Source: Phycisphaerales bacterium (GTDB taxonomy: Bacteria > Planctomycetota > Phycisphaerae > Phycisphaerales > SM1A02). Taken from it: DNA of 64,000 bases. The stretch covers positions 1-64,000 of the forward strand of contig JABABM010000009.1 in the NCBI GenBank assembly GCA_014238205.1, in the 5' to 3' direction. The translations under genes and the position numbers were made by a program. The notes under the pieces are model-generated. The model worked only from the letters and a program-made list of their open reading frames with translations. It ran no database searches and was not told where the DNA came from. Positions 4,473 to 40,400 of the stretch are shown piece after piece. Within the stretch, counting starts at the first letter, position 1; each line of letters begins with the position of its first letter.

Positions 4473-5609
4473 ATGCATACCAGGAGACAGGCAAGGCGTT
4501 TGATTCGGATCAGTACGGTCCTGGCACTCTGTGCCGTGACGGTCTCCTCCGCCATGGCCCTGCTGCTCTGCCGGTACACCGTCCGGGATATCGGGTTCGT
4601 CAGCCTCGGTGAACCCAACTGGATCCTGGTCATTGACGAAAACAACTCCGGACTCGAATCGGCCGGCAGGGTCCTGCTTCAAGATTCGAATGTCGATCTA
4701 GAGACCCGCAGGCTGGGACAGGATGTTGCAGGTGATGCCTGGCTTGAGGACCGGGACGGGCGGATGCTGCAGTTGCCGCTTCAACCTGGACTCTCGGACA
4801 TGCAGAAGATTGAATCCGTCGTGCGCTCCGATGCGAGAACACGCATTGCCGATGCCGCCCTTGATCGATTTGCCGTCATCCTGCTGCTCGAAGGAACTGA
4901 TGCGAAGGCAAACACGAGGGCGAGGGAGGCCATCGACTCGGCCGAAGCGATGCTTGCGGAACTTGATGCAGATGGAACATCACTTCCACGTCGCATCGGC
5001 AAGGGGCCAGATCAGGTCATCGTGCCCGTGGATGCGGGCGAATCCGTGCTCCGTTGGAGCCTTGGGCTGCCGATTGAACCTGGAAGACAGCCCTCGATCG
5101 CCGTGCTCTACGGACGATCCAAGCTCGCGGGTCGTGTACTGCATGGTCCAGGCATGACTGCAGGTGACATCCTCGATCAACTGTCAGTCGTCGGTCTTTC
5201 CTGTGAATGTGAACAGGCGAGGGATTGGGCATTGAGGCCGTCTCTTCCCGGTACATGGACTCGCTCATATCACATGTCTGCAGTTGATCAACTTGGATTC
5301 GATCCTTCGCATCCTCTCGTGTTGGCCGAGGTCCGTCGAATCCTTGCACGTGGAAACGATGCACCAGTACTCACGAACCCTGGTGACACGTCCGAGGATC
5401 TTGTACTTGGGTACAGCGAGTCAACTGTCATCGAGGACATCCCCGTCTCCCCGGCCGCCGAACGACCCGAACCGATTGCGCCCCCCGCGCAACGTGCCCC
5501 TGGCAGCCGATCCAACGAGTCGCTTGGTTGGATTTCGATTCTGCTCGGAGCGATCGTGGCGGCGGGCATCGCCGGTGCCCTGGTCATTCTCCGAAGGGGT
5601 CGTCCCTGA
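4473..5609 (+). CDS. Unknown bitopic membrane protein, first gene of a ten-gene operon
   Basis: A 378-residue protein with a hydrophobic helix near the N-terminus (STVLALCAVTVSSAMALLL) and another at the extreme C-terminus (SILLGAIVAAGIAGALVIL), followed by a short basic tail. The about 290 residues between are probably periplasmic. They contain a VRDIGFVSLGEPNWILVIDE segment and a proline-rich stretch before the second helix. I do not recognise the family. Its stop overlaps the ATG of the FtsX-type permease by one base, so it probably works with that ABC pair, for instance as a periplasmic partner. An upstream TTG (4443) is a possible alternative start. Confidence 0.6.
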   Translation: MHTRRQARRLIRISTVLALCAVTVSSAMALLLCRYTVRDIGFVSLGEPNWILVIDENNSGLESAGRVLLQDSNVDLETRRLGQDVAGDAWLEDRDGRMLQLPLQPGLSDMQKIESVVRSDARTRIADAALDRFAVILLLEGTDAKANTRAREAIDSAEAMLAELDADGTSLPRRIGKGPDQVIVPVDAGESVLRWSLGLPIEPGRQPSIAVLYGRSKLAGRVLHGPGMTAGDILDQLSVVGLSCECEQARDWALRPSLPGTWTRSYHMSAVDQLGFDPSHPLVLAEVRRILARGNDAPVLTNPGDTSEDLVLGYSESTVIEDIPVSPAAERPEPIAPPAQRAPGSRSNESLGWISILLGAIVAAGIAGALVILRRGRP

Positions 5610-6745
5610 TGCTGCTTCGACTGGTCATCTCGGAGCTTCGACATCGCTGGAGTGGAGCGGCCTTGGGCCTCATCATGATCGCTGTGGCGACAAGCACGGT
5701 TCTGCTGGTGGCCATGCTCGCCGAGAGTGGTGAACGACAGACACGGCGTATCCAGCGGGACATCGGGCTGAACGTCATCATTCTTCCCCCGGGAACAGAC
5801 ATTGACGAGTACTGGATGACAGGCGTTGCGACCGGGTCGATGCAGGCTGATGTCATGGACCGGCTTGTCGATCAGGACGTCGCCAATCGCCTTGTGCCGA
5901 TGCTCAAGCAGTCAATCGAGATCAATGGTCACCAGGCAATGCTCGTTGGACTGGAAGATGAGTGGTACAGGCGGAATCGAACCATGCCGGACGTCTTTAC
6001 GACGGAGGTTCCCTTGGGCAGCGTGGTGCTCGGCTCGGCGATTGCCCGGTCATTGGGTGCAGGGCAGGGGGATGTGGTCCAGGTTCTTGGAGAGTCGATG
6101 AACGTTGACCGCGTCCTGGCTTCCACGGGAACACGTGAAGATGTTGCAGTCCATGTCACGCTGGCCGATGCACAGCAATTGCTCGATCAAGCGTCGACTC
6201 TCAACGAGATCCAGGCCATCGAGTGTCACTGCGCCCCGGGCGAGACGGACCCGCTTGGCCGGCTTCGTACGGCGCTTGATCCGATCATCCCGGGGGTGAC
6301 CATCATCCGCCGGGAAGCAGCAGCCAATGCACGCCTGCAGCAGCGTCACCAGGCAGAGCGGGTCCTCGCAGTCACATCTCCCCTGGCGCTGCTGCTCTGT
6401 GCCGGGTTGGTCGCTGCCCTGGCGACGATGAACATGCGAGAGCGCCGCGTCGAGATCGGCCTGCTGCATGCAGTGGGTCGAAGCGGGGGATTCATCGGGA
6501 TGCTCTTGCTGGGTCGCTGGATTCCCATCGGCTTGCTCGGTGCGGTCCTGGGCTGGGTGCTTGCCATGGCCTGCGTCACGTTCATCAGCCCGGGACTCTT
6601 ACCGAATGGTGGGCAGATGGCGATCCCGGTTTCAACGTTCACATTTGTTCTCGTGCTTGCTCCTGCGGGAGCGATTTCTGCCAGTGCAGTGCCCGTAGCC
6701 TTCGCACTACGTCGCGATCCTGCCGAGGTACTTCGATCGATCTGA
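5609..6745 (+). CDS. FtsX/MacB-type ABC transporter permease
   Basis: A 378-residue permease with the four-helix topology of the FtsX/LolC/MacB group. One helix is near residues 12-32. A periplasmic domain of about 210 residues follows, then three C-terminal helices (around SPLALLLCAGLVAALATMN, WIPIGLLGAVLGWVLAMAC and FTFVLVLAPAGAISASAVP). The inter-helix loop MRERRVEIGLLHAVGRS is the typical FtsX-family coupling segment. Such permeases do mechanotransmission or lipoprotein/peptide extrusion rather than classical import. The ATG overlaps the preceding stop, and the partner ATPase starts four bases downstream. Substrate is unknown. Confidence 0.85.
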   Translation: MLLRLVISELRHRWSGAALGLIMIAVATSTVLLVAMLAESGERQTRRIQRDIGLNVIILPPGTDIDEYWMTGVATGSMQADVMDRLVDQDVANRLVPMLKQSIEINGHQAMLVGLEDEWYRRNRTMPDVFTTEVPLGSVVLGSAIARSLGAGQGDVVQVLGESMNVDRVLASTGTREDVAVHVTLADAQQLLDQASTLNEIQAIECHCAPGETDPLGRLRTALDPIIPGVTIIRREAAANARLQQRHQAERVLAVTSPLALLLCAGLVAALATMNMRERRVEIGLLHAVGRSGGFIGMLLLGRWIPIGLLGAVLGWVLAMACVTFISPGLLPNGGQMAIPVSTFTFVLVLAPAGAISASAVPVAFALRRDPAEVLRSI

Positions 6746-6749
6746 CACC

Positions 6750-7424
6750 ATGCCCATGATCCAGATCCAATCCGTCAGTCGCAGGTTTCAACGTGGAAGC
6801 CAGGTCGTCGATGCACTCGTCGACTGCTCCATGGATGTCGAGCAGGGAGAGTGTGTCGTGGTTCGAGGTCCCAGCGGGAGCGGCAAGACGACCTTGCTCA
6901 TGGCAGTGGGCGGTCTTCTCAGGCCTACGAGCGGATCAGTCATCGTGGAGGGCAGGCCCATCTGGGAGGGCAGCGAAGCCTCCCGGGCGGTCTATCGCTC
7001 GAACACGGTCGGCTTCGTTTTCCAGGATCCACATCTGCTTCCCTGGTTGAATGCCCGTGACAACATTGCCATCGCAGTACAAGGCCGGGCTTCCATGGGG
7101 GAGATCGACCAGTGCCTTGAAGGCCTGGGTCTTGGAGATCGGGCGGAACATCTGCCGGGTGAACTGAGTACGGGTGAACGCCGCCGTGTTGCCCTGGCCC
7201 GCGCGCTCGTGAATAAACCAGCCGTACTGCTGGCTGATGAGCCCATCAGCCACCTCGATCAGGAATCTGCCGCATCAGTCCTCCAGATCCTGTCTTCCTG
7301 GTGCATTGAAGGTGGTACCGTGGTGATGGTGAACCATGGGGAACAGTCGCCTCCCTGCAAGCACCGGTTCATGGACCTGCTCGAGGGTCGACTGCACGAC
7401 CAGGGAAGGGCGGAAGCAAGGTGA
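6750..7424 (+). CDS. LolD/MacB-type ABC transporter ATP-binding protein
   Basis: A 224-residue ABC ATPase, the usual size of LolD/FtsE proteins. Visible motifs are Walker A GPSGSGKTTLL, Q-loop FQDPHLLPW, signature LSTGERRRVALARAL (the common LSGGQ is LSTGE here), Walker B VLLADEPISHLD and the switch histidine in MVNHG. It should energise the adjacent FtsX-type permease. The next gene begins within its stop codon (GTGA), consistent with translational coupling. Confidence 0.92.
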   Translation: MPMIQIQSVSRRFQRGSQVVDALVDCSMDVEQGECVVVRGPSGSGKTTLLMAVGGLLRPTSGSVIVEGRPIWEGSEASRAVYRSNTVGFVFQDPHLLPWLNARDNIAIAVQGRASMGEIDQCLEGLGLGDRAEHLPGELSTGERRRVALARALVNKPAVLLADEPISHLDQESAASVLQILSSWCIEGGTVVMVNHGEQSPPCKHRFMDLLEGRLHDQGRAEAR

Positions 7425-8803
7425 AGAACAGGTTGAACATCATCGTCTTTCTGTTGACAGCAGGCTTCCTGGCTTTGCCGACTGTTGCTGACTGGCCAGG
7501 CTACGGCGGGGACATGGCTCGGAGTCGAGTCGCTGACTCGTCACTGGACAGGAACCTGGTGGAGGCCTGGCATTGGAGTTCCCCGGTCCCACCTCGCCCG
7601 GCATGGCCTGGGCCGGCCAAGTGGGATGCCTACAACAAGGTCCATGACATGAAGTCACGGCTCATGTTCGATGCAGCCAACCACGTGGCAATCGGGCCGG
7701 AACGTGTCTACGTCGGAAGTTCAGGCGATGACAAGGTCTATGCGATTGATCGACAGTCCGGGTCGGTGGAATGGACCTTCTACACGGAGGGGCCGATTCG
7801 ATTCTCTCCCTGGCTTGAGGGAGATCGACTCCTTGTTGGTTCCGATGACGGGCGGATCTACTGCCTTGATGCCCGGACGGGTGAAGAGGTCTGGTCACGG
7901 CGACCGGCGGGCGCTGACCGGAGGGTTCCCGGGAATGGGCGAATCATTTCTGCCTGGCCGATCCGAACCGGACCAATCGCGCGTGATGGCATCGTCTACT
8001 GCACCGCGGGACTGTTTCCCCTGGAAGGGGTCTATCTGTCCGCCTACGACCTTGATGAGGGCAATGTGCTCTGGTCACGTCGTTTCGAGGACCTTCCAGC
8101 GCAGGGCTACCTTCTGGCATCTCAGGACCGGTTGTACGTGCCGACCAGTCGCGATGCGCCGGTCATCTTCGACCGCTCCGATGGCACTCGAATCGGCAGG
8201 GCTGGTGGGCAGGGTGGCACATGGGCGCTGCTGACCGGTGATACGCTCGTATACGGTCCTGGCAAGACGGGCACCATCGGTGTGCACGAGGCAAGCAAGG
8301 GTGACCAGTTGGCGACCTTCACGGGGAACCACATGATCGTGACGCCCTCGATGTCCTACCTCCACACCGACACGGAACTGGTTGCTCTTGATCGCGCGGA
8401 ATACCTCCGCCTCTCGGCAGGCCGGGCAGTTGCAGCTTCTCGTCAACAGGAAATATCGGAACTGCTCGCCGCAGGAGGCAACGAACGGGCTGCACTTGAA
8501 TCGGAAGCCATGGAGTTGGGAGCGAGGATCGATGCGCTTGCCGCTGCAATGAAGAACTGCTTCAAGTGGAGAGCCCCATGCAGTCATCCCTATTCAATCG
8601 TCCTGGCTGGGGATCTCGTCATCGCCGGTGGGGATGATGAAGTTGCTGCATACGATGCCGCCGATGGCTCGCTTGCATGGAGCGCCCCAGTCATCGGCGC
8701 AGCACATGGCCTGGCCGTCGACGATGGAGTCCTCTACGTAACAACCGATACGGGTGTTCTCTACTGTTTCGAACCGGTCTCGGTTCCAGGGGGAACGCCA
8801 TGA
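7421..8803 (+). CDS. Exported PQQ-type beta-propeller protein
   Basis: A 460-residue protein with a Sec signal peptide (IIVFLLTAGFLALPTVA) followed by DWPGYGGDMARS, a common opening of planctomycete propeller proteins. Repeated blades carry VYAIDRQSGSVEWTFYTEG, IYCLDARTGEEVWSR and LSAYDLDEGNVLWSR, the tryptophan-docking pattern of PQQ-dependent dehydrogenase/BamB propellers. A coiled-coil-like insertion rich in Ala/Glu lies around residues 325-370. I see no PQQ-binding vicinal disulfide, so it may be a scaffold and not a quinoprotein. GTG start overlapping the ATPase stop; its own stop overlaps the next ATG. Confidence 0.82.
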   Translation: MKNRLNIIVFLLTAGFLALPTVADWPGYGGDMARSRVADSSLDRNLVEAWHWSSPVPPRPAWPGPAKWDAYNKVHDMKSRLMFDAANHVAIGPERVYVGSSGDDKVYAIDRQSGSVEWTFYTEGPIRFSPWLEGDRLLVGSDDGRIYCLDARTGEEVWSRRPAGADRRVPGNGRIISAWPIRTGPIARDGIVYCTAGLFPLEGVYLSAYDLDEGNVLWSRRFEDLPAQGYLLASQDRLYVPTSRDAPVIFDRSDGTRIGRAGGQGGTWALLTGDTLVYGPGKTGTIGVHEASKGDQLATFTGNHMIVTPSMSYLHTDTELVALDRAEYLRLSAGRAVAASRQQEISELLAAGGNERAALESEAMELGARIDALAAAMKNCFKWRAPCSHPYSIVLAGDLVIAGGDDEVAAYDAADGSLAWSAPVIGAAHGLAVDDGVLYVTTDTGVLYCFEPVSVPGGTP

Positions 8804-11800
8804 TCCACCTGGTCCTCTGCATGGCGATAGGCACTCCACCCCTCGTGGGTTCGGCCTTGCCCTACCCACCCGAAACACCGACCTGGGAGCGGTATGCATC
8901 CTGGGGCGTCGGTGATGATCATGTCGAGGGAACAACCGTTCTCAGAGAGTTGCCCGGTCGCATTGACGGACGAATACGAATGGTGACGTCGCCTGTGGAA
9001 GCACTGGTCCTCGATGGACGAAGCGTGAAGGTGCATCTGGGCGATGATCCCGCTGCACTGCTTCCTGCCGGCAACTTCTCCGTCGAGGCCTGGGTCGTCA
9101 TTGATCGTGCCCAGCAATGGGGGGGGATCGTGTCGGCTCTCCAGGACAACGGGGCCTCGGAACAGGGTTGGCTGCTTGGCTTCCGTGACGATCGGCCCTG
9201 CTTTGCGCTGGCGTCGAAGGGGGCAGACGATGGTGATGGCAAGATGACCTATCTCGTCTCGGATCGACCCTTTGAACCGGGAACACTCCATCATCTGCTT
9301 GGGACCTGGGATGGGAGCACGATGCGGCTCTACATGGATGGCCAACTCGTCGGCACGTCCGAGGAACAGTCCGGTGAAGTGCTGTACCCGGCACGCGCGC
9401 CCGTGACGCTCGGCTCCTACGAGGACGACAACGAGCATTACCCCATGGCAGGCCTGCTTGGTCGTATCGGGATCTGGGACCGTGCGCTCGGGACCGAGGA
9501 AGTCGCCTGGTGGCATACCCAGAGCGGTCCCGCTCCGATCACACAGGCACCCCTGAAACCAGTTGCCAGTTATGACTCGGCCTACCTCATTCCCGATGGC
9601 CTCGACGAAGAGGGCAAACCGTTTCGGCCCGACCCGAGAAGGCCGATACCACTGGAGGGGACATCTCCAAGTTCAATCGGCCCATCGTTCCGTGTCGTCG
9701 AGCCTGGATTGATGAACATGCCCGAGGAACGCTTCTCGATCGAAGCACTGCTCTCGCTGGACCGTGTACTTCCCGAGGGAGGGGTTGTTTCATGGGCCGA
9801 CGAGGATGGGCGGGGATGGGTGCTGGGCCAACGTGAGGGTCACCTGGGATTCGGCCTTGCCAGCGAGGATGGCCAGAGGCATTGGGTCACTGCGCCGCAA
9901 CCCTTCATACCGGGGCAGTGGTATCACGTTACGGCGACGTTTGATGGGTCATCCACGCGTCTTCATGTCGATGGCGAACCTGTTGCCATGTCCCGCGAGG
10001 TCATCGGTTCGGTACAACCCTCCGAGGGCACCCCGTTGTCATTCGGTGCTCGATATCGGGATGATGCCGAGGGCGCGGAGCACGGTGGAGTCTTCTTCGC
10101 GACGCTCCACAACCGGAACATGTCCACATCCGAGATCAAGGAGGCAGCTGTCGCTGCTGCGAAGCGAGTTCCACCATCGCTTCAACTGCGCATGAGCCCG
10201 GCCATGAAACCGCTCGGGAAAGGTCGTTGGTTGATGACCTGGGAAACCAGCACTTCGGGGCCGTCTGCAGTCGAGTGGGGAACAGTCTTTCCACTTTCAA
10301 ATCGTGTCGACTCCAAGGGCATCGGGACACGACACGAAGCCATTCTTGATGATGTACCGAGGGATCGACTGGTTCGATTCCAGGTTCTTGGATTGGTCGA
10401 TGATCCGCGACCGGTGACCATGATCCAGCCACAGGTCCGCCCTGGGCTCACGCCACCACCACCTGTACCCAGTGGACCCACGACAGTCGAGGCTCGCTCG
10501 CCCCAGATGTCATTTGACACCGCCTTCGACTACTCCGATCAGGGGAAGGGGTACATCCTTGTCTGGGGACTGGAGGATGGGAAACGGGCGAGTGCTCTTG
10601 CCAGGCGATACGACATGCAGGTCATTGCGATCGACGAGGATCCTGCGAAGGTCCGGATTGCCCGGGAAGCCGCTGAAGCAGCCGGGTTGTATGGAGATCG
10701 GGTCCGAGTTCATCAGTTTTCCGGTGAGACACTTCCCTATGCCCCGTACCTCTTCGACTACGTGACGACGGAGCGACCAGTCGACGGCACGGCATTCACT
10801 GACAGGCAGAACCAGGAACTCTGGCGTGTGCTGCGGCCTGCCGGGGGCGTGCTTGATGTCGACAAGGACCTTCTTGGAACGTACAAGTCTCCTCCCGTGA
10901 GACGAGGCAGCAGCGAGGCCATTGTCGATCGACATCGCAGTGGACGGCGCATCTACAGGCGTGCGCCCTTGAAGGAAACCGGAACATGGACGCACCAGTA
11001 TGGCGATGCCGCCAACACGGCCTGCAGCCAGGATGACCTGGTGAGGGGTGACATGGGCGTACTCTGGTGGGGACGGCCAGGCCCACGGCCCATGATGGAC
11101 CGGGGCGCTCGGACACCCGCGCCCCTTATGGCAGGCCACCGGATGTTCATCCAGGCCAACAGGCAGCTCATTGCCGTCAATGCATACAACGGGGCGATTC
11201 TCTGGAGCCTCCAGGTTCCAGGGCTTCGCAGGGTCAACGTGCCTCGAGACTGCAGCAACATGGTCGCAAGTCTCGACGACAAGCTCTATGTCGCAATCGA
11301 TGACAGGCTCTGGGTGATCGATGCGGAAACGGGGGAACGAGTGGCCATGGTGGATGTTCCCGTGCAGGTCGATGCTCCCCTTGACTGGGGCTTCATTTCG
11401 CGGATGGATGGACACGTGCTCGGTACCGGGGTCCGCCCGGGGTCGACCTACACCGGTGCCGAGGGAGAATGGTATGACGGCGGAGGCGAGGAATCCTGGC
11501 GGGTGACCAGCGATGTCCTCTTCAGTCTTGATTCTGCAGATCACGACCTGCAATGGTCACATGTGCCACGAGGCAGGTTGCTGAACTCGACGATCACCGT
11601 CGACGAGGGCAATGTGTATTACATCGAGGCACGTTCTGGATCGGCCAATGGGGCGGTATCGGGCCGGATTGGCCAGGCGTCGCTGCGTGAGCAGTACCTT
11701 GTCGCGGTTGATCTTGAAACAGGCCGTCGATCCTGGGAGACACCCATCGAAGTCGATCACTTCGATCGCATGACGTATCTCCTGAAGAGCAATGGTGCGC

Positions 11801-12279
11801 TGGTGGTTGTCGGTACTTCCGACAAGTTCCATGTGCTCGTATTCAATGCCGATGACGGATCACTTCGTTGGCAGCAGGACCATTCCTGGGATCGTGATCA
11901 TCATGGCGGCCCGCTTCAGCACCCGGTCATCTTCGGCAACGAGGTCTTCGTTGAACGCCTTGCCTACGATCTGGAGAACGGGGACATCACCCGGGAAGGT
12001 ATTCCACAGGGTCGGGGCTGTGGAACGAAGACAGCTTCCAGTCATCTCGTCCTGTTCCGGCATTACTTCCATTCCTTCTGGGATCCAGGATCAGATTCCT
12101 GGACCGAGTGGACAGGTACTCGTGGAGGCTGCTGGCTGGGGATGCTCCCGGTCGGGGGGATCGTGCTGGCTCCCGAGTCCAGCAGCGGATGCTCCTGCAC
12201 CCATGCCATCCAGACATCGATGGCTTTCGTGCCGCGTCGATCTGATCCCACCTTCAGTCGCATCGAGGGAGATGACTGA
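8800..12279 (+). CDS. Exported multidomain protein: LamG-LamG-methyltransferase fold-beta-propeller
   Basis: A 1159-residue protein with a short signal peptide. Two concanavalin-like LamG domains lie at about residues 85-240 and 310-455 (FSVEAWVVIDRA...WDGSTMRLYMDGQLVG; FSIEALLSLDRV...FDGSSTRLHVDGEPVA). A fibronectin-III-like segment follows (about 460-540). A Rossmann methyltransferase-like region is at about 580-690 (VWGLEDGKRASALARRY, MQVIAIDEDPAKVRIAREAA, LWRVLRPAGGVLDVD). A C-terminal PQQ-type propeller spans about 727-1159 (LIAVNAYNGAILWSLQV). A methyltransferase fold in an exported protein is odd because SAM is not expected in the periplasm; it may bind another ligand. Start ATG overlaps the previous stop, and the next gene follows after three bases. 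Confidence 0.8.
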   Translation: MIHLVLCMAIGTPPLVGSALPYPPETPTWERYASWGVGDDHVEGTTVLRELPGRIDGRIRMVTSPVEALVLDGRSVKVHLGDDPAALLPAGNFSVEAWVVIDRAQQWGGIVSALQDNGASEQGWLLGFRDDRPCFALASKGADDGDGKMTYLVSDRPFEPGTLHHLLGTWDGSTMRLYMDGQLVGTSEEQSGEVLYPARAPVTLGSYEDDNEHYPMAGLLGRIGIWDRALGTEEVAWWHTQSGPAPITQAPLKPVASYDSAYLIPDGLDEEGKPFRPDPRRPIPLEGTSPSSIGPSFRVVEPGLMNMPEERFSIEALLSLDRVLPEGGVVSWADEDGRGWVLGQREGHLGFGLASEDGQRHWVTAPQPFIPGQWYHVTATFDGSSTRLHVDGEPVAMSREVIGSVQPSEGTPLSFGARYRDDAEGAEHGGVFFATLHNRNMSTSEIKEAAVAAAKRVPPSLQLRMSPAMKPLGKGRWLMTWETSTSGPSAVEWGTVFPLSNRVDSKGIGTRHEAILDDVPRDRLVRFQVLGLVDDPRPVTMIQPQVRPGLTPPPPVPSGPTTVEARSPQMSFDTAFDYSDQGKGYILVWGLEDGKRASALARRYDMQVIAIDEDPAKVRIAREAAEAAGLYGDRVRVHQFSGETLPYAPYLFDYVTTERPVDGTAFTDRQNQELWRVLRPAGGVLDVDKDLLGTYKSPPVRRGSSEAIVDRHRSGRRIYRRAPLKETGTWTHQYGDAANTACSQDDLVRGDMGVLWWGRPGPRPMMDRGARTPAPLMAGHRMFIQANRQLIAVNAYNGAILWSLQVPGLRRVNVPRDCSNMVASLDDKLYVAIDDRLWVIDAETGERVAMVDVPVQVDAPLDWGFISRMDGHVLGTGVRPGSTYTGAEGEWYDGGGEESWRVTSDVLFSLDSADHDLQWSHVPRGRLLNSTITVDEGNVYYIEARSGSANGAVSGRIGQASLREQYLVAVDLETGRRSWETPIEVDHFDRMTYLLKSNGALVVVGTSDKFHVLVFNADDGSLRWQQDHSWDRDHHGGPLQHPVIFGNEVFVERLAYDLENGDITREGIPQGRGCGTKTASSHLVLFRHYFHSFWDPGSDSWTEWTGTRGGCWLGMLPVGGIVLAPESSSGCSCTHAIQTSMAFVPRRSDPTFSRIEGDD

Positions 12280-12282
12280 GCC

Positions 12283-13767
12283 ATGCCGGGTGTCCGATGG
12301 ACCATCATGCTTGCTGTCGCACTCCTGGTACCGATGGGTGTGCATGGTGCATCGACGGATCCGGAGCCGTTGCTTGTCTACTGCGCAGCTGGAATCAAGA
12401 AACCCGTTGTCGAAGTTGCAAGACTCTGGGAGGAGGAGACCGGACAGGAAGTCCAACTGCAGTTTGGTGGTTCCGGAACGCTCCTGAACAACCTGGCACT
12501 GGCCGGGAAGGGAGATCTCTACATCGCGGCGGAGGAATCCTACTTCCAGATGGCACGGGAGCGGGGGCTTGTCAGGGAGGTCATCCCCCTGGCGACACAG
12601 CAATTGGTGATCACCGTTCCCACGGGGAATCCGAAATCAATTGAATCCCTTGAAGATCTCACTGCAGAAGGTGTACGAATCTCGATGCCCAATCCCGAGG
12701 CCGCGGCTGCTGGCAAGGTGGCCAGGTCGGTGCTCAGGTCACATGGACTTTGGGAAGACATCTCCGGGAATACGAAAGTGTTCAAGCCGACCGTCGGGGA
12801 TGTTGCTGTCGATGTCCGCCTTGGCGCAGTCGATGCAGCCATCATCTGGGACAGTACCGCCTCGCAGTTCGAGGGAATCGAGGCCGTGCACGACCCTCGT
12901 CTCGAGCAGAGTACGGAGGTCGTCGGGATCGGGGTGCTCGAATCAACGAAGGATCCTGCACGGGCGATCGGCTTTGCGCGATTCGTCGGCGCTGCCGATC
13001 GTGGGCAGATCAACATGCAGGCGCACGGGTTCGGTCAGGTCGCGGGGGATGACTGGTCCTCAAGGCCGCGATTGGTCCTGTTTGCAGGAGCCATGCTTCA
13101 TCCGGCCATCGAGACCCGGGTCGATGACTTTGCCCGCCGTGAAGGTGTCGACATCGAGCGTGTCTACAACGGGTGCGGCATGCTGGTCAGCCAGATGAAG
13201 GCTGGTTCGAAGCCCGATGCCTACTTCGCCTGCGACCGATCATTTCTCGAACTGGTTTCAGATCGCTTCCAACCAGGCATCGACGTTTCCACGAACCCAC
13301 TGGTCATACTCGTTCCAGCGGAAAATCCCAGGAACATCCAGTTACTTTCCGACCTGGTGCAGCCAGGAACCCGCGTGGGCATTGCGCATCCGGAGCAATC
13401 GGCACTCGGAGCCCTGACACGGAAGATCCTGCTCCAGGAGGAACTGCATGGATCGCTCGAGGCTTCGGGGAACATCAGGGTTGTCTCACCTACGGGCGAG
13501 TACCTCGTCAACCAGTTGCGTGTTGGAGGACTTGATGCCGTCGTCGTCTACGGAAGCAATGCCAATGCGTCTGCTGCAACTCGCCAGACCTGCGTGAGCA
13601 TTTCACTGGATCTCCCGGGGTCGATTGCCCACCAACCCTGGGCAGTCAGCCGGGATTCCAACCATGCCCTGACCATGAACCGCCTGTACGAGGCCCTTTC
13701 AAGTGATGAATCGGCGGATCATTTCCGATCGCTTGGATTCGGTTGGGTGACATCGACCGGGCAATGA
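12283..13767 (+). CDS. Two-domain ModA-type periplasmic binding protein
   Basis: A 494-residue exported protein (signal peptide IMLAVALLVPMGVHGA) built of two consecutive periplasmic-binding-protein domains of the molybdate/tungstate ModA class. The first (about residues 25-250) begins LLVYCAAGIKKPVVEVA with GGSGTLLNNLALAGKGDLYI. The second (about 262-490) begins LVLFAGAMLHPAIETRVDDF with NGCGMLVSQMKAGSKPDAYF. Each has the later ModA landmark (VRLGAVDAAIIWDS; LRVGGLDAVVVYGSN). ModA is normally a single domain of about 250 residues, so this is a fusion or duplication. It is followed directly by modB and modC genes and should deliver an oxyanion to them. The usual ligand Ser after AA is Gly or Met here, so the substrate may differ from molybdate. 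Confidence 0.85.
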   Translation: MPGVRWTIMLAVALLVPMGVHGASTDPEPLLVYCAAGIKKPVVEVARLWEEETGQEVQLQFGGSGTLLNNLALAGKGDLYIAAEESYFQMARERGLVREVIPLATQQLVITVPTGNPKSIESLEDLTAEGVRISMPNPEAAAAGKVARSVLRSHGLWEDISGNTKVFKPTVGDVAVDVRLGAVDAAIIWDSTASQFEGIEAVHDPRLEQSTEVVGIGVLESTKDPARAIGFARFVGAADRGQINMQAHGFGQVAGDDWSSRPRLVLFAGAMLHPAIETRVDDFARREGVDIERVYNGCGMLVSQMKAGSKPDAYFACDRSFLELVSDRFQPGIDVSTNPLVILVPAENPRNIQLLSDLVQPGTRVGIAHPEQSALGALTRKILLQEELHGSLEASGNIRVVSPTGEYLVNQLRVGGLDAVVVYGSNANASAATRQTCVSISLDLPGSIAHQPWAVSRDSNHALTMNRLYEALSSDESADHFRSLGFGWVTSTGQ

Positions 13768-14687
13768 GCGGACAGAACAAAGTCATCCTGGAACGCCTTG
13801 GAAGGCCTCATCGGTCCAAGCCCGACATGCCCTTCCACGCCCTCTTCATCGGCTTGACGGGGTTCTTCATCCTGTTGATCGTCGGACTGCTCGCCGCCAA
13901 CGCATCCTTTACAAGTCTCGATGACATCAGGACGGCGCTGGCGGATGATGCGATCTTCGCCTCAGTACGCCTGAGCCTCGTGACCTGCACTATTACGGCA
14001 TTTCTCTCGCTGCTCTTTGCGATTCCTGCTGGGTATGTCCTTGCGAGGTATCGATTCCCTGGTCGATCAATCGTCGACGCGATCGTCGATATTCCCATCG
14101 TTCTACCACCGCTTGTCGTCGGAATCAGTCTCCTGATCCTCTTCAACCAGACTGGCCCTGGGCGGGCGATCGAAGACTGGTTCGTCTCGTTCGTCGCCTG
14201 GTGCAACAGTACCGTCCCCTGGCTCATGGACCTGCTCGGATTGTCGAGGATCCGGGGAATCACCTACGACGTTCCAGCTGTCATCCTCGGTCAGTTCATG
14301 GTCGCTTCAGCCTTCGCGGTCCGGACGATGCGTGTCACCTTTGACCAGATCGATCCACGACGGGAGCAGGTGGCTCTTACGCTTGGCTGCAGTCGTGGGC
14401 AAGCCGTACGACGGGTGGTGCTTCCCGAGGCTCGGCGCGGAATGGTTGCCGCAGCCACCCTTGCCTGGTCCAGGGCCATCGGCGAGTTCGGCCCCATTCT
14501 CGTCTTTGCCGGGGCGACGAGGATGAAGACAGAGGTCCTGCCGACGACGATCTTCCTGGAACTGAGTGTCGGGAACATCGAGGCCGCGGTTGCCGTTTCC
14601 CTGGTGATGGTTGCCATTGCCCTGGCAATCCTCATCCTGGCGCGTTCGCTTGGACTCTGGACAGGACGGGATCACGAACTTCAATGA
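13764..14687 (+). CDS. modB: Molybdate/tungstate-type ABC permease (ModB-like)
   Basis: A 307-residue inner-membrane permease of the ModB/CysT class with about six hydrophobic helices. The cytoplasmic EAA coupling loop is clear: QVALTLGCSRGQAVRRVVLP ending in SRAIGEFGPILVFAG. The ATG overlaps the stop of the binding-protein gene (ATGA), and the stop overlaps the ATPase start. It is somewhat longer than E. coli ModB owing to an N-terminal extension and a loop around residues 130-160. The oxyanion specificity (molybdate, tungstate, sulfate) cannot be settled from sequence alone. Confidence 0.87.
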   Translation: MSGQNKVILERLGRPHRSKPDMPFHALFIGLTGFFILLIVGLLAANASFTSLDDIRTALADDAIFASVRLSLVTCTITAFLSLLFAIPAGYVLARYRFPGRSIVDAIVDIPIVLPPLVVGISLLILFNQTGPGRAIEDWFVSFVAWCNSTVPWLMDLLGLSRIRGITYDVPAVILGQFMVASAFAVRTMRVTFDQIDPRREQVALTLGCSRGQAVRRVVLPEARRGMVAAATLAWSRAIGEFGPILVFAGATRMKTEVLPTTIFLELSVGNIEAAVAVSLVMVAIALAILILARSLGLWTGRDHELQ

Positions 14688-15337
14688 TTGAACTTGATGC
14701 CATTTCGATTCGTGCCGGCTCCTTCCACCTTGACGGGGTGTCACTGAAGGTGTCGAAAGGTGGATACACCGCATTGATGGGGCGAACAGGTTCAGGCAAG
14801 ACCACACTGCTCGAAGCAATCTGCGGGCTTCGTGGCGTCGAGTCGGGAACGATCCGGATTGCAGGGCAGGATGTCACGCACGCCAGGCCCTCCCAGCGGG
14901 GCATCGGGTACGTACCGCAGGACCTGGCCCTCTTTCCGACGATGACCGTGGCCAGGCAGTTGGCCCTTCCCTTGTCGATTCGACGCCTCGACAAGCGATT
15001 CATCTCTGAACGGGTCGACAACATCGCTTCGATGCTCGGGATCGGAGACCTGCTCAACAGGCGACCTTCAGGACTCAGCGGAGGTGAGTTGCAGCGTGTT
15101 GCATTGGGGAGGGCACTCTCCTTTGCACCATCGGTCCTCTGCCTTGATGAGCCGTTGAGCGCTTTGGACGATGAAACGCGAGAGGAGATCTGCGGCGTGA
15201 TCAAGCGTGTCCAGGAGGAGGTGGAGGTGACCGTGCTGCATGTAACGCACAGTCTCAAGGACGCGGAAATGCTGGCAGACGCTACCCTGACCATTCGGGA
15301 GGGAACGATTGTTCCTCTCCAGGAGGAAACGGCGTGA
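14684..15337 (+). CDS. ModC-like ABC transporter ATPase lacking a regulatory domain
   Basis: A 217-residue ABC ATPase with Walker A GRTGSGKTTLLE, Q-loop PQDLALFPTMTV, signature LSGGELQRVALGRAL, Walker B VLCLDEPLSALD and the switch histidine in HVTHS. It resembles the nucleotide-binding half of ModC/WtpC but lacks the C-terminal TOBE/Mop domain that senses molybdate in long ModC proteins. Import here is therefore probably not trans-inhibited by that route. ATG overlaps the permease stop; the following MoaD-like gene starts inside its own stop codon. Confidence 0.88.
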   Translation: MIELDAISIRAGSFHLDGVSLKVSKGGYTALMGRTGSGKTTLLEAICGLRGVESGTIRIAGQDVTHARPSQRGIGYVPQDLALFPTMTVARQLALPLSIRRLDKRFISERVDNIASMLGIGDLLNRRPSGLSGGELQRVALGRALSFAPSVLCLDEPLSALDDETREEICGVIKRVQEEVEVTVLHVTHSLKDAEMLADATLTIREGTIVPLQEETA

Positions 15338-15608: not shown

Positions 15609-16331
15609 ATGTGTCCAGGTGAACTTACGGATGGTGATCGAGCCAGGTACCAGTGGCAACTGGGGGTTTCCGGTTTCGGAGAAGAAGGACAGGCTCGTCT
15701 CAAGGCCGCCTCGGTACTTGTCTCCAGGGTGGGGGGGCTGGGCTCGCCCGTCGCCTATGAACTTGCTGCGGCTGGAATCGGGAGACTGGTTCTTGCCCAT
15801 GCAGGAAACCTCAGGGCCGATGACCTGAATCGGCAACTCCTCATGACCGATGACTGGATCGGCAAACCTCGTGTCCAGTGCGCAGCTCGCCGAATTCGAG
15901 AGCTCAACCCGGACCTGGAGGTCGTAGCCATCGATGCGAACATCTCTGATGCGAATGCCGCTGAACTGGTGGGAGAGGTCGACCTGGTCGTCGATTGCGC
16001 GCCACTCTTCGAGGAACGGTACGCGATGAACGAAGCCGCATTCGCGAAGGGAATACCGATCGTCGAATGCGCCATGTACGACCTTGATCTCACGATCACC
16101 TCCCAGCAACAAGGGCGGACACGATCATTGCGGGAGCTTGTTCCTCAGCCACCGGTGCACTGGAAACGGGAGTTCCCCGTGTTCGGCGCAGTCTCCGGAA
16201 CGGTGGGGTGTCTTGGCGCGATGGAGGCGATCAAGATCCTCGCGGGGTTCGGCGAACCCTTGTGGAACCGCATGTTGATGATGGATCTTCGAACCATGTC
16301 GACGCGGCTGGTGACCCTGCCCACGCCTTGA
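15609..16331 (+). CDS. Degenerate MoeB/ThiF (E1-like) protein
   Basis: A 240-residue homologue of MoeB/ThiF, which adenylate the C-terminal glycine of MoaD/ThiS. The overall fold is evident from VGGLGSPVAYELAAAGIG, LNRQLLMTDDWIGKPRV, VVDCAPLFEERYAMNEA and GCLGAMEAIKILAGFG. Several functional positions differ from E. coli MoeB. The first Gly of the nucleotide loop is Arg. The DxDxxxLSNLQRQ acidic pair is replaced by AHAGNLRADDLNRQ. The essential Asp of DCTDN is Pro in DCAPL. Both zinc-binding CxxC pairs are missing. The NRQ arginine is retained. It may bind the sulfur carrier without normal adenylation. Two bases separate it from the MoaD-like gene. Confidence 0.82.
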   Translation: MCPGELTDGDRARYQWQLGVSGFGEEGQARLKAASVLVSRVGGLGSPVAYELAAAGIGRLVLAHAGNLRADDLNRQLLMTDDWIGKPRVQCAARRIRELNPDLEVVAIDANISDANAAELVGEVDLVVDCAPLFEERYAMNEAAFAKGIPIVECAMYDLDLTITSQQQGRTRSLRELVPQPPVHWKREFPVFGAVSGTVGCLGAMEAIKILAGFGEPLWNRMLMMDLRTMSTRLVTLPTP

Positions 16332-33696: not shown

Positions 33697-33836
33697 GGTG
33701 GGGATTGTACCCCCCCCTGATTGTCACAGAGGAGGTTTCACGGCTGCAGGGCTTGTTGAAGGCGCAGAAATGATGCTCTCGGGGTCTGATAACAGGGCAG
33801 TTCACTCTCTTGGGTGTCCTCTGGCTCAACCAAGGG

Positions 33837-33930
33837 GCCTCATCAAGTCGATGTGAGGCTCTACGGTGGCTCTTTCGTGGCACCGTCGCTGTCGTGCCGG
33901 GATGGGCGGCCCCATTCCAAGTTGTTTTTT
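33837..33930 (+). promoter_or_regulatory. Candidate attenuator/riboswitch leader of the exopolysaccharide operon
   Basis: Three successive hairpins precede the export-protein gene. Hairpin one is GCCT-CATC/GATG-TG-AGGC (33837-33859). ACGGTG (33863-33868) can pair with CACCGT (33881-33886), but the same bases are used by GGCAC/GTGCC (33879-33898), so two folds exclude each other. Immediately after follows GGGATGGG-CGGC-CCCATTCC (33899-33918) and then AAGTTG plus six Ts ending at 33930, an intrinsic-terminator shape 27 bases before the ATG at 33958. The layout is that of transcription attenuation. The ligand or sensor is unknown; I saw no known riboswitch consensus. Confidence 0.5.
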
Positions 33931-33957
33931 AGGGTCAAGAACGCGAACTCGCCAGTC

Positions 33958-35514
33958 ATGAAATCCGTACACGCTATCTGGAGACATGGAGTGCGGAGAG
34001 AAAAAGGACAATGTGCATTGTGGCAACGAAGCAGGGTATTCCTGCTGGCTGTTGCCATGGTCCTGCCGGCACTTGGATGTGAGGTCAACTCCTACTTTGA
34101 TCCATCCCGGACTGGTCGATTCATGCAGACGCCGACGACCATGCCCGTACTTGAAAGAATAGATGTGATCGAGCCGAGTCTCGATCTCTGGGGACAGACG
34201 ACGGGCGTGTCGCCGGAGGACCTGGTTCCAAGCAACCTGACGTACCGGATTCATCCTGGTGACACGTTGGCTATCGAGATCTACGAACTTTATGCAAAGG
34301 GTCAGTGGTACCCGATGTCCCGCCGTGTCGATGCAGGGGGCTACATCAGGCTGCCTTCACTTGATGAGGTCCTTGTTGCCGGGCGTACTGCGGAGGAACT
34401 TCAACAAGACATCGAGCGCAAGCTGAGTAGCGATGTCATGCGACATCCCACGGTGAACGTCTCGATCGACACCGGGAACGCCTTCACATACACCATCTAT
34501 GGTCATCTTGCCATGCCCGGTCGATTCACACTGAACGACCCGAGCCTGCGTCTCCTGGAAGCACTTTCAATGACAGGTGCAGTTCCCCTGAGTACGAAGT
34601 GGGTTTACATCGTTCGTCAGGTGTACACATCCGATGACCTTCGTGGCCACTGGGAGAAGGACGATGTTGCAGAGCAGGATTCCGGCTCCAAACCTTCTTC
34701 AGGTTCTGCCCCGGACATCGAGTCACTGATCGATCAGCTTGAAAATGCCAAACCGAAGCCAAGTCCAGGTGCCTACAGCATGGACGATGAACCGCTCGTA
34801 GACGTCGATGATCTCGACGTACCCTCGGTCCGGACCCCGAGCCCTGTCGACGTCGATGATCTGCAGACAGCTGTTCCCGAGGAATCGAATGACAACGCCT
34901 TCATCTACGTTCCTGAACGCGATGAATGGGTTCGTGTCGAGCAGTCGGATGTGAACGCGGCGATCGATACCGAGCGGGAACAGGGGAAAGAGCATCCAGG
35001 CTCACCGCCGAATCTCATTCTTGAGCGTGTCATCAAGATTCCGTACATGATGCTGACCCATGGTGACAACAGTTACAACATCATCGTCCGACCTGACGAC
35101 CAGATCTATGTGGATGGTCCACCAGTCGGAGTGGTCTATATATCCGGCGAAGTTCTTCGCCCAGGCGTATACAACCTGCCCAACTCGGATCCACTGACCC
35201 TGAGTCGATTGATCGCCGCAGCTGGTGGCCTCGGTTCACTGGCGGTTCCGGACCGGGTGGACCTGACGAGGATGGTGGGGGAGCACAGGGAGGCTACGGT
35301 CCGGATGAATCTTGCCGCCATACGGCGTCGTACAGAGCCGGACTTCTACCTGAAACCCAACGATCATGTCCATGTGGGGACAAACTGGCTTGCCTATCCT
35401 CTGGCGGTGTTCAGGAATGGACTCCGGATGAACTACGGGTTCGGGTTCCTTCTTGACAGGAACTTCGGTAATGATGTCTTCGGTCCACCACCGATCAGCG
35501 TCCGCCCGAACTAG
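33958..35514 (+). CDS. Wza-type polysaccharide export lipoprotein
   Basis: A 518-residue outer-membrane export protein. The signal sequence ends in a lipobox (VLPALGCEVN). The polysaccharide-export domain follows (YRIHPGDTLAIEIYE, MSRRVDAGGYIRLPSLDEV, VNVSIDTGNAFTYTIYGHL, MPGRFTLNDPSLRLLEALSM). SLBB-like repeats continue near the C-terminus (VVYISGEVLRPGVYNL, LSRLIAAAGGLGSLAVP). Between them, at about residues 234-340, is an acidic, proline/serine-rich insertion (DDEPLVDVDDLDVPSVRTPS) that ordinary Wza lacks. The ATG is placed just after a terminator-like leader. First gene of the exopolysaccharide operon. Confidence 0.88.
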   Translation: MKSVHAIWRHGVRREKGQCALWQRSRVFLLAVAMVLPALGCEVNSYFDPSRTGRFMQTPTTMPVLERIDVIEPSLDLWGQTTGVSPEDLVPSNLTYRIHPGDTLAIEIYELYAKGQWYPMSRRVDAGGYIRLPSLDEVLVAGRTAEELQQDIERKLSSDVMRHPTVNVSIDTGNAFTYTIYGHLAMPGRFTLNDPSLRLLEALSMTGAVPLSTKWVYIVRQVYTSDDLRGHWEKDDVAEQDSGSKPSSGSAPDIESLIDQLENAKPKPSPGAYSMDDEPLVDVDDLDVPSVRTPSPVDVDDLQTAVPEESNDNAFIYVPERDEWVRVEQSDVNAAIDTEREQGKEHPGSPPNLILERVIKIPYMMLTHGDNSYNIIVRPDDQIYVDGPPVGVVYISGEVLRPGVYNLPNSDPLTLSRLIAAAGGLGSLAVPDRVDLTRMVGEHREATVRMNLAAIRRRTEPDFYLKPNDHVHVGTNWLAYPLAVFRNGLRMNYGFGFLLDRNFGNDVFGPPPISVRPN

Positions 35515-35631
35515 CGTGTTCTGCCTGATCTGCCATGCGGTTCACGTGAGGCACCTGCGGGCGTATGTTGCATCGGTTGACTGCCAGCATGCATGGTCGT
35601 GCTCGGATGAACCGAACAGGGGAGAGGAGTC

Positions 35632-37407
35632 ATGACTGCAGGAGAGGTCCCACTGGAATCCAGAGAATCGCTTTCAGAGCGTTCGCTCTGGCTGATGAGT
35701 GGGTTTCTTCTCGTCATCATTGCCTGGCTCTTCTGGGATTACCTGCAGCGTCAGGTGCTCTTTGCGGTCAACCAGCAGGCTGACTGGGGTCACACCCTCG
35801 TCATCCCGTTCATTTCCGGGTATTTCGTCTGGCTGAATCGTGAGCAACTGCTTCGGGAGCCGTTCCGTTCGTCGTGGACAGGGCTGTTCCTGCTGGTTGC
35901 CGGCATGTCCTGGTATTCCTTCTGCGCACTTGGCCCTCAGGTTCTGAAGCATCACAACCTCATGGGGGTCGGTTTCGGTCTCTCGCTTGTCGGACTCACG
36001 CTCTTTCTCTTCGGCTGGCGATCGATGCGATGGTTGTGGTTTCCACTGCTCTACATGATTCTCTTCAGCCAGACGATCTCGGATCGCTTCCTGCAGATCG
36101 TGACCTTCCGTCTCCAGGATATCGCTGCATATGGATCCTACTGGGGCTTGACGCTGCTGGGCTATGACACGAGTAAATCCGGGAATACGCTTCGAATCTT
36201 TCTTGATGGTGAAGTGATTCCCGTGAACATCGCAGAAGCATGTTCAGGGATGCGCATGGTGGTGGCATTCCTCGCACTGGGTGTTGCCATGGCATACCGG
36301 GGCCTCGACTTCGCATGGCAGCGGTTTCTGCTTGTCGCTTTCGCAATACCGACAGCAATCCTTGTCAACATTCTCAGGGTCATCACTCTCGGGGTTCTTG
36401 CAACTCTGGATTCGAACTTTGCAGCTGGTGATTTTCACTCGATGGTGGGCATGCTGTGGCTGATTCCTGCATTCTTCATCTACCTTGGAGTGATGTGGTT
36501 GCTGCGAAATCTTGTCGTTGTTGATGATGAAGAAGGTTCATCCAGGGGCGAAGGGGATTCCGCAGAAGGCATCCTGTCAGTTCGATTCTCACGAGGAACC
36601 AGGAAAGCGTTCATCGTGGCCTGCCTGGTCATGGTGGGGGGAGGAGTCCTGTTCCAATTGCTCGCTGCTCAACTCAATGTCTATCTCCAGAAGGAACCAG
36701 TCAAGTTGAGAAGTTCCCTGGCCAATGTTGAAACAACACTTGGTAGCTGGAAGATGCTCCATGAGTACAGGATGTCCGAGGCGGCGGCGGAGGAACTTGG
36801 AACCAAGTACTACATCTCCCGCATCTACAGGAACAGGGCCGAGCCTGGATGGCCGGCACTCAATCTTCACGTGGCCTACTACACGGGTCAGATCGATGTT
36901 GTTCCTCATGTCCCGGACCGATGCCTGGTTGCAGGTGGGCTCGTGGAGCGATCGCCTGAACCATCGCATTACAATCTCAATGTAGATCAGTCAGACTGGA
37001 TAGAGGATCCATATCACCAGATCGACGGGGTTCCATTCCAACTGGGCAAGGCCAGGGGGCTTCACGAGGTCAGGATGCCAGTTGGAGATATCGTAGTGCG
37101 GACATCGGAATTCCTCGATCCAGCCCACCCTGAAGAGCGTATCTTTGCCGGGTATTTCTTCATAGCGAACGGGCGATTGACTCCAACTCCCGGGGGCGTC
37201 CGGATGCTTGCTTTCAACCCAATGGAGAAGTATGCCTATTATTGCAAGTTGCAGTTCATGATGACGGGAGACGCTGATTTTGAAGTCGATGACTTCGTCG
37301 AAGTCATAAGTGACGCGATGAATGAACTCCTCGGCGAAATCATGCTGTGTTTGCCGGACTGGGCTGAAGTCCAGGATGGCGTATTGAACGACCCAACCGA
37401 CACCTGA
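35632..37407 (+). CDS. Exosortase fused to an EpsI-type domain
   Basis: A 591-residue protein. Residues 1-310 form a multi-helix exosortase, the membrane transpeptidase-like enzyme that processes PEP-CTERM-type proteins. The conserved catalytic triad is visible: Cys204 in NIAEACSGMR, Arg249 in VNILRVITLG and His269 in AGDFHSMVGMLW. After another helix (around 330-350), residues about 360-590 match the EpsI/DUF3485 domain (LNLHVAYYTGQIDVVPHVPD), a separate protein in some systems but fused here. The ATG has a GGGGAGAGGAG ribosome binding site. No PEP-CTERM substrate gene was seen in the window. Confidence 0.9.
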   Translation: MTAGEVPLESRESLSERSLWLMSGFLLVIIAWLFWDYLQRQVLFAVNQQADWGHTLVIPFISGYFVWLNREQLLREPFRSSWTGLFLLVAGMSWYSFCALGPQVLKHHNLMGVGFGLSLVGLTLFLFGWRSMRWLWFPLLYMILFSQTISDRFLQIVTFRLQDIAAYGSYWGLTLLGYDTSKSGNTLRIFLDGEVIPVNIAEACSGMRMVVAFLALGVAMAYRGLDFAWQRFLLVAFAIPTAILVNILRVITLGVLATLDSNFAAGDFHSMVGMLWLIPAFFIYLGVMWLLRNLVVVDDEEGSSRGEGDSAEGILSVRFSRGTRKAFIVACLVMVGGGVLFQLLAAQLNVYLQKEPVKLRSSLANVETTLGSWKMLHEYRMSEAAAEELGTKYYISRIYRNRAEPGWPALNLHVAYYTGQIDVVPHVPDRCLVAGGLVERSPEPSHYNLNVDQSDWIEDPYHQIDGVPFQLGKARGLHEVRMPVGDIVVRTSEFLDPAHPEERIFAGYFFIANGRLTPTPGGVRMLAFNPMEKYAYYCKLQFMMTGDADFEVDDFVEVISDAMNELLGEIMLCLPDWAEVQDGVLNDPTDT

Positions 37408-37424
37408 TTACGGACAACATCGAG

Positions 37425-40400
37425 ATGGCCAAGAAAAAGAAAAAGAAGAAGAAGCAGAAGTTGAACATCAGACTCCTCCTGATCATCGCCCTCGTGCTGG
37501 GTGGCGTGGGTGTCGTCGGTGGTGGCGTGTTGTACTACCAGGGCTCATGGCGAGCCACTCGGAACATCACGTCGGGCCTCAAGGCCATGGATGAAGGCGA
37601 TTACAGGTTGGCGAAGAAGTACTTTGGCCGGGTGCTCTATCGCCAGCCCGACAACGTGATTGTCTATGAAAACCTGCTGACTACATATGACAACATCGTT
37701 CCGGTTTCCCAGGTCGAAGCCAGGGAGTTGTTCAACGAACGTCGTGCCGTCATGTTGTCTCGCGCAAAGAACCTGCCCGCGGCAGAGGAGAACTACATTC
37801 CCCTCATCGAGGAACTCTACTATTCAGCGAGAATTACGGACAGGGAAGAGTACCCGCAGCAGTTGATGCAGGTGTGCGATGAGATCGAGCGTCGATTCCC
37901 AGAGTCATCCGAGATCTACGCCGAGGCGAAGCTCTACAGGGGCCTTTGCACCCTGCGGCTCAGGGATGGAGAGATGACCGACGACCTGCGTATCGATGGT
38001 CGCATCTACTTCCCCGGGGAAGAAGAAATCATGGAGCATGTCGAACTGGTCCCCGGAAGTGACGAAGGCTGGGCACACCTGGCATTCGGTCGACTGGCCG
38101 TTGCGAGACGATTGGGCCTGGAGGGGCGTGTCGGGCAGGAGGCCAAGAATCTTCGGCATGCCAACACGACCTACAAGGAAGCTGTTGCAAACAATCCTGA
38201 TGGCGCCGCAACCACTTTGATGGTACTCCGAGACTACTACATCCAGAAGGTCGTCCAGACGGGTGAAATCCAGAACGACAGTGCTCGCATTTCGCAGGCT
38301 GAAATCGATGAACTCGAGGAGAGGCTCCAAGCGGCGCTTGATCACGCTGAGCGCATCGTGAAAACTGATCCAGGATCGATGCCCATCAAGGTGCAGGAAC
38401 TGCTCATGTACTTCAAGCGGGTGGATTTCGAACATGGGCAGGAACGTGCTGCTGCTCTACTTGAAGCCTACCTCGCTGATCAGCCGGAGGACATCCGATT
38501 CCGCCTTGCACTGGCGGATGTGTTTCACGTCATGAAGGACTATGTCTCTGCCTTGAAAGAGGTGCAGCAGGTCATTGGGGCAGACCAGAAGACCATCAGC
38601 CTTGAGTCGCTCGAGCAGTATGAATACAGGCTGGCAGCGGCAAGTCTTGATTTCGAGATTGCGCATTCCCTGTGGGTAGACGCCGATCAGGATGACAAGG
38701 AGATGTCGTTCGACATCATGATCGACAAGCGAGAGACGCTTGATGACATGATGAGTGGGGACAAGGACAACATTGTCGCATTGAATGCAGATGCTCGTAT
38801 CGCAATGGGGCAGGGTGAATACAAGAAGGCAGCCAACTTCTTTGAAAGACTCATCTTCATTGCGAATGCTCCCTCGGGTGTGATATATCGAAATGCGGCA
38901 ATCTGTCTTGAAAGAATAGGGCAGCAGGGACTGGCCTTGGAGCGGCTTGACGCGGCAGTTCAGGTACAGCCAATGCAGTTGAGCCATTACCTGGCGAAGG
39001 CCAGCATGGAAGGCCGCTTGAAGCGGGCGGAGGAGGGTATTCGCACACTCGAGTCTCTTCCGCCGGGGATCCAGCAAGATGATGAAGCTGTCAAGGAGCT
39101 CATGGCATCACTCCAACTCCTGTTGCGAACGAGCAATCAGACCGGGCTGGAGGGCATTGGTGATCCAGTTCTTCAAGTTATTGGCGAGGCGAACAATGAA
39201 GTGCGAGTGGGCAATCTCGATTTAGCTTTGGAAAAACTCCAGAGCATGGCAGCCGAGATGGACACGGTGGATGTTCGTCTGCTTCTGTCAATTGCCCAGG
39301 TCGAATCACTGCGAGGCAATATCGAGACAGCTTTGGAATTAATGGATGCTGCAATCGCCGCTGATCCAGACAATGAACGACTTGAGAGGATTCGATTGCA
39401 ACTCAGTGCAGCTGACATTCTTGAAGTCGCCCAGGAAAGTGTCCGCCAATCATATTCTGACAGCGAATCCCTTGAAGCGAAGGAGGCAATGTTCATTGCT
39501 TTGCACGTTGTAATTGCACAGCAGTCACAACGTGCTGAAGAGTTGGCTCGCCTCGGACAGCTTGAGGAGTCAGCCAAGACGAGGGGTGTTGCATCGCGGG
39601 CACAGGTTGAACTGGATCAGTTGGAACCCTCCGTCATGGGATCCGGTCCCTCCGGGAACCTGAACTTGTTCTCGATCCAGTTTGAACGTGCGATTGAAGC
39701 CAGAGACTGGCCGAAACTTGAAGAACTTGTCGAATACGGATCCGAGAGCAACATCGACTTGGCTGGTGGGGACATCTTCCGTTCCAGGTTTCATATCGCC
39801 CAGGCTTATGCGGAGAAGGAAGCGGGCAATGATGGGCTCCATGCCGAGCATGCAGAGGCAGCAGTGCTGGCCGCCACAAGGGCCACTGAAGTCAGCTCCT
39901 GGTCGGACAATGCATGGTTGGCACGGGCTATCTCACTGGAGGAACTTGGGAATGTGGAGGATGCCATAGATGCATATGCCGAGGCCTACAGGCGGAATCC
40001 GTCCCGTAGTCAAACGGCCCGCTTGTATGCAGGCATCCTTGTTAGATCAGGCAATGACCCCCTCGTGACATTGCGGGTTCTCAAGGATGCTCACGAACTT
40101 CTTCCGAATGATGACTTGATCAGGGAGGGGTGGCTGAAGGCAGAGTCCAATTCAGGAAGTGTCAGTCGAGTCTTGTCTGAACGGGGGGCGATACACCGGT
40201 CGCATCCCAACAACATCCAAAACAATCTTGAACTTGCAAATCTGCTTTCAACTCTCGAACTAAAGCCCGAATACATGATCGATGAGTATGGCAAGGAAGT
40301 ATTCACGGAACGTGAGTGGGGTTCAATGTCCAAGAAGTTCCAGGACAAGGCAATTGGTGATTACAGGAAGCAGTGGGAGAACACTAGATCCGCCATTCTT

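Follow-up and report, generated by a model that had tools for sequence, protein, structure and literature searches.

The window analysed here, a 64,000-nucleotide stretch of the genome of a marine planctomycete of the Phycisphaerales (contig JABABM010000009.1), contains a gene at 8800..12279 whose 1159-residue product joins what looks like an export signal to carbohydrate-binding-type domains, a methyltransferase-like segment and a propeller. This raises the question of what a methyltransferase fold might do outside the cytoplasm. The gene, like all features described below, lies on the forward strand. Its annotated start is sound because the start codon at 8800 (ATG) shares bases with the stop codon of the upstream gene (ATGA) and is preceded by a purine-rich stretch, GGGGGA. 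A frameshift or assembly artefact is ruled out by the single open frame and by orthologues with the same domain order, six of which could be aligned over their full length.

The predicted domain order is signal peptide, LamG, LamG, Fn3-like domain, pseudo-methyltransferase and propeller. The first LamG domain (residues 84-236, 9049..9507) is matched by Laminin_G_3 with an E value of 6.6e-41 and 140 bits against a cut-off of 27.6, and its nearest solved fold is that of PAPP-A (Z 20). A second Laminin_G_3 match in Pfam, together with Laminin_G_2, marks the second domain at about residues 312-455 (9733..10164), where a pentraxin-like fold spans residues 250-456 (Z 18); the two LamG domains reported in the earlier note are thus both there. 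They share the LamG fold of PAPP-A and the pentraxins, but the window protein lacks the protease or pentraxin context of those proteins. Judging from their family, the two domains probably recognize sugars on the cell surface or outside the cell. Missing from the earlier domain list was a Fn3-like domain at about residues 463-545 (10186..10434), which is all-beta in the model; at the same position the relative L211 gives a weak match to Pur_ac_phosph_N (E 2e-5, below the family cut-off).

The C-terminal domain (residues 728-1147, 10981..12240) matches PQQ_2 and resembles the propellers of BamB, tetrathionate hydrolase and YxaL, each with a Z score of about 18. The earlier designation as a PQQ-type propeller therefore holds for the fold, as a BamB-type propeller, and for the fold only; PQQ-dehydrogenase profiles give weak matches far under their cut-off. 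BamB and the other PQQ_2-type propellers are likewise exported, but they share only about 10-16% identity with the window domain, and four invariant cysteines and an arginine mark the latter as a separate family.

Export itself appears well founded. The N-terminus (residues 1-19, 8800..8856), MIHLVLCMAIGTPPLVGSA, resembles a signal peptide in its hydrophobic stretch and AXA-like end, though it has no basic residue before that stretch. We scored export with a simple home-made rule rather than with SignalP. The window protein passes, as do 59 of 62 family members whose N-terminus is complete; L009 is among the three that fail. Of the controls, the rule picks out none of the 68 cytosolic LolD, ModC and ThiF genes, but it does pick out 39 of 40 periplasmic proteins encoded in the same loci (ModA and propeller genes). 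Clear signal peptides are seen both in orthologues and in distant relatives. The sequence evidence is thus consistent with the signal peptide proposed earlier.

The segment first recognized as Rossmann methyltransferase-like, at about residues 580-690, proves to be part of a complete domain at residues 582-724 (10543..10971). Pfam matches Methyltransf_25 to residues 589-682 above its cut-off (E 1e-7). Residues 568-728 were folded and searched against the PDB separately, as the search with the full-length model returned propeller and LamG matches. The full-length AF2 model, built with six orthologues, has a mean pLDDT of 57 and is too poor to judge domain packing or cysteine geometry. Folded alone, the segment is predicted with a pLDDT of 78.9 and a pTM of 0.79, and it shows the full strand and helix order of a class I methyltransferase, so that the model argues against the absence of a Rossmann fold. 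The secondary-structure order and the PDB matches both indicate a seven-strand Rossmann-like sheet and place the domain, as a fold, among the class I SAM-dependent methyltransferases. Among solved structures it matches TleD with SAH best (Z 15.4, rmsd 2.3 over 134 residues), and essentially all of the 50 best PDB matches listed are methyltransferases. A Foldseek search with the domain model ranked AtmM and RebM first (E 1.5e-8), and AtmM is also the best match by sequence (E 3.5e-5). The domain thus has its fold and best sequence match in common with the sugar O-methyltransferases RebM and AtmM and the Methyltransf_11/25 enzymes. Unlike RebM and AtmM, it lacks an intact motif I and the helical cap before strand 1, is exported, and is embedded in a larger chain.

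The difference in motif I can be seen in an alignment with RebM, AtmM and 72 relatives. In place of the enzyme hallmark hhDhGxGxG, the window protein has YILVWGLEDGKR (10552..10587), in which VWGLEDG aligns with DVGCGIG of RebM. The acid before the loop and the middle glycine, two features of the SAM pocket whose inspection the earlier note had proposed in general terms, are gone from the sequence. Neither the acid after strand 3, on the adenine side, nor the stretch after strand 4 that forms the active site in RebM is kept. The SAM-side features that survive are G590 and G594, which represent two of the three motif glycines, and D612, the hallmark acid at the end of strand 2. An important caveat is that loss of motif I alone is no proof of lost SAM binding.

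Is this decay peculiar to the window protein? The combination of domains had earlier been called unusual, but a search for the same architecture shows that its methyltransferase-propeller core is widespread. Of 392 sampled Planctomycetota genomes, 63 contain it, as do 14 of 400 genomes from the same order (E 1e-40), which rules out a fusion unique to this genome. The searches covered Planctomycetota, plus one LamG-biased scan outside the phylum. The usual form is propeller-methyltransferase-propeller, to which LamG domains have been added, in shuffled positions, in 27 of 73 members. By its signal peptide and its core with C1074, C1111, C1131 and C1133, the window protein belongs to this exported family. 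Its chain lacks the N-terminal propeller, which is encoded by a separate upstream gene (7421..8803), as is also the case in L009-L013, L094 and L184. One core-family gene, G486:C240:57414-59339, has an in-frame TAA and is perhaps a pseudogene or an assembly error. In the open-access literature we found no published description of the family or of the gene cassette described below, and nothing relevant on planctomycete proteins combining methyltransferase, PQQ and LamG domains, on secreted methyltransferases or on links between molybdate and propellers, which is a weak form of absence.

Across the 73 members, motif I is intact in 7, kept as GxGxG in 24 and degenerate in 49. Pfam no longer recognizes the methyltransferase domain in the close relatives L013 and L094, nor in L211. 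LamG-bearing members keep on average 2.2 of five SAM hallmarks, compared with 3.2 in the others (Mann-Whitney p 0.003, uncorrected for relatedness). The motif appears to have been lost many times, because a tree built from the propeller only, drawn from its midpoint and with weak branches near the root, requires 17 changes of motif state. The direction of change, from intact to decayed, would follow from the fact that the methyltransferase superfamily at large has the motif intact. A decayed motif tends to occur together with the cassette and LamG domains, and an intact motif without either: neither a cassette nor LamG lies near the intact-motif members that were checked (L198-L203 and L205). 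The trend has exceptions, as L126 has cassette genes without LamG and L041 has cassette genes together with GxGxG.

One possibility is that the old pocket has kept a binding role, but for a ligand that is not SAM, such as a cation or a nucleotide-like molecule, in which case the domain would be an extracytoplasmic sensor or receptor module. In the 39 cases in which the middle glycine has been lost, an acidic residue stands in its place 24 times, a state that changes 14 times on the tree, and 56 of 73 members have the acid that ends strand 2. However, glycine codons have few one-step neighbours, and as two of these encode acidic residues, a degree of enrichment would be expected anyway; the closest orthologues, L009 and L013, have lost both the glycine loop and the strand-2 acid. 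We consider such a module unlikely.

The pattern of conservation points elsewhere. In the last propeller, C1074, C1111, C1131, C1133 and R1087 (12019..12198) do not vary among the 71 sequences covering them, which makes this the most strongly selected site of the protein, and the face that carries them is likely a ligand or active site, judging from conservation only. If the methyltransferase domain follows class I topology, its best-kept residues (G584, R622, G632, R634, P680 and G683, each in at least 69 of 73 members) would fall at the base of the sheet, either in helix B or ahead of strands 1, 3 and 5, and would be remote from the SAM side. Among the six orthologues, mean identity is 33% in the methyltransferase domain, compared with 52% in the propeller and 49% in LamG1, but LamG2 (27%) and Fn3 (26%) evolve faster still. 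Over the whole family the methyltransferase region is only slightly less conserved than the propeller, with a mean entropy of 2.42 versus 2.28 bits. This near-equality argues that the methyltransferase domain is not free of constraint and, together with the faster change of LamG2 and Fn3, that the contrast concerns specific sites more than whole domains.

These figures also bear on whether the domain is a functionless remnant that persists by chance. Repeated loss of the motif and fast change are what such a remnant would show. Nevertheless, the domain is always present and in frame among members from the core search, a count in which losses would be underestimated since the core profile includes the domain itself; its predicted fold is kept in the window, and so are the six family-wide residues named above. 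Persistence by chance therefore seems to us more doubtful still than a repurposed pocket. Least probable is an active exported SAM-dependent methyltransferase: seven exported relatives do keep DxGxGxG and the strand-2 acid, but the window protein lacks the acid before the loop and has only two of the three glycines, an intact motif is absent from the whole LamG-bearing group (0/27), and SAM is not known to occur outside the cytoplasm, which counts against this activity.

Taken together, the loss of motif I in the window protein and most relatives and the invariance of the propeller cysteines and arginine favour a model in which the segment is an exported pseudo-methyltransferase, its SAM signature mostly lost, that probably serves as a rigid, non-catalytic spacer. 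In this model, a complete class I methyltransferase fold would have been captured into an exported propeller protein of Planctomycetota and would then have lost most of its SAM-binding signature. The decayed domain would hold the other domains of the protein together, and the working site would more likely lie in the last propeller than in the methyltransferase domain. From the sequence we infer that the window domain would carry out no methyl transfer. The seven exported members with an intact motif I leave room for an ancestor that may have bound SAM outside the cytoplasm. The earlier note had offered two options, a methyltransferase that was lost and now binds another partner, or an activity that is new; the loss is borne out by a fold without its SAM signature and by repeated decay, and our data stop short of the binding or the new activity. 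There are precedents for such a change of role. METTL14 is a pseudo-methyltransferase, and it and the cyclase SpnF (4pne, among the listed matches) likewise use a methyltransferase fold for something other than methyl transfer. These proteins are cytosolic or nuclear, whereas the window pseudo-methyltransferase forms part of an exported chain that also has LamG and propeller domains.

The surroundings of the gene suggest a process in which the pseudo-methyltransferase protein may take part. It is the fifth of nine genes in a cassette that is tightly packed from the first gene, X, to ModC. Gene X (4473..5609), which is conserved in orthologous loci, encodes a putative envelope protein that is hydrophobic at both ends and contains three invariant cysteines, C33 and the two of an SCEC motif. 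It has no family match in Pfam, NCBIfam or the PDB, where a profile search gave chance-level matches only. An FtsX/MacB-like ABC permease (5609..6745, FtsX E 3.8e-10) follows, and then a LolD-like ABC ATPase (6750..7424) that matches the LolD-type NCBIfam model below its equivalog cut-off. The exported propeller protein at 7421..8803 (PQQ_2 E 1.2e-25) is the equivalent of the N-terminal propeller in fused relatives, whose N-terminal part is matched by its profile. The two proteins probably work together, because they form one chain in many relatives. Downstream of the fusion gene lie a twin ModA-like substrate-binding protein (12283..13767), a ModB-like permease (13743..14687) and a ModC-like ATPase (14684..15337), the latter two assigned by Pfam and NCBIfam profile matches. 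The twin ModA protein has two SBP domains, matches SBP_bac_11 twice and scores 105.5 bits against the ModA profile TIGR01256, for which the cut-off is 62.5, which places it by sequence among the ModA proteins. After a gap of 271 bases, a MoeB/ThiF-like adenylyltransferase (15609..16331, ThiF E 3.9e-43) completes the cassette, as it does in most orthologous loci.

This gene order recurs in L009, L011, L012, L013 and L094/L196, and L010 ends at a contig edge; in other genomes the cassette genes are present in a changed order. Gene X occurs in 18 of 392 genomes, all 18 of which have the core (Fisher p 5e-16, ignoring shared ancestry), and the twin ModA occurs in 53 of 392 Planctomycetota genomes, 46 of them with the core (p 5e-38, again with shared ancestry ignored). 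The strength of the association rests as much on gene order as on these p values. The transporter genes belong to the same families as the ModABC molybdate-type importer and the LolCDE/MacB-type ABC systems. The cassette differs from both in its twin ModA domains, its single FtsX-like permease and its two exported propeller proteins. In the system that we envisage, an ABC machine of the FtsX/LolD type and a ModABC-type importer would work with an envelope part made up of the fusion protein and the separate propeller. Going by the ModABC transporter family only, our guess is that the substrate is an oxyanion such as molybdate or tungstate.

Elsewhere in the window, at 33814-37407, a gene for an SLBB polysaccharide export protein precedes an exosortase EpsH gene, which suggests a PEP-CTERM-type surface system in this genome. 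Adjoining the exosortase gene is a 1708-residue protein consisting mostly of TPR repeats (37425-42551), followed in turn by a ParA/CbiA-like P-loop protein. A secretin of the type II/III secretion type lies at 55963-57789.

A bolder reading would extend to the whole family: Planctomycetota would possess exported proteins that place methyltransferase folds outside the cytoplasm, some of them with an intact SAM motif and the others with a pocket turned to a new ligand, all within an undescribed envelope transport machine. We give this reading only a small chance. For the window gene, the pseudo-methyltransferase assignment means that labels such as methyltransferase or PQQ protein, as given by annotation pipelines, are probably wrong. 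The family offers a natural series of exported proteins from an intact to a fully decayed cofactor motif, in which the passage of an enzyme fold into a structural part can be tested. The cassette, in turn, links the fusion protein to two ABC systems and provides a genetic handle on an envelope process of Planctomycetota.
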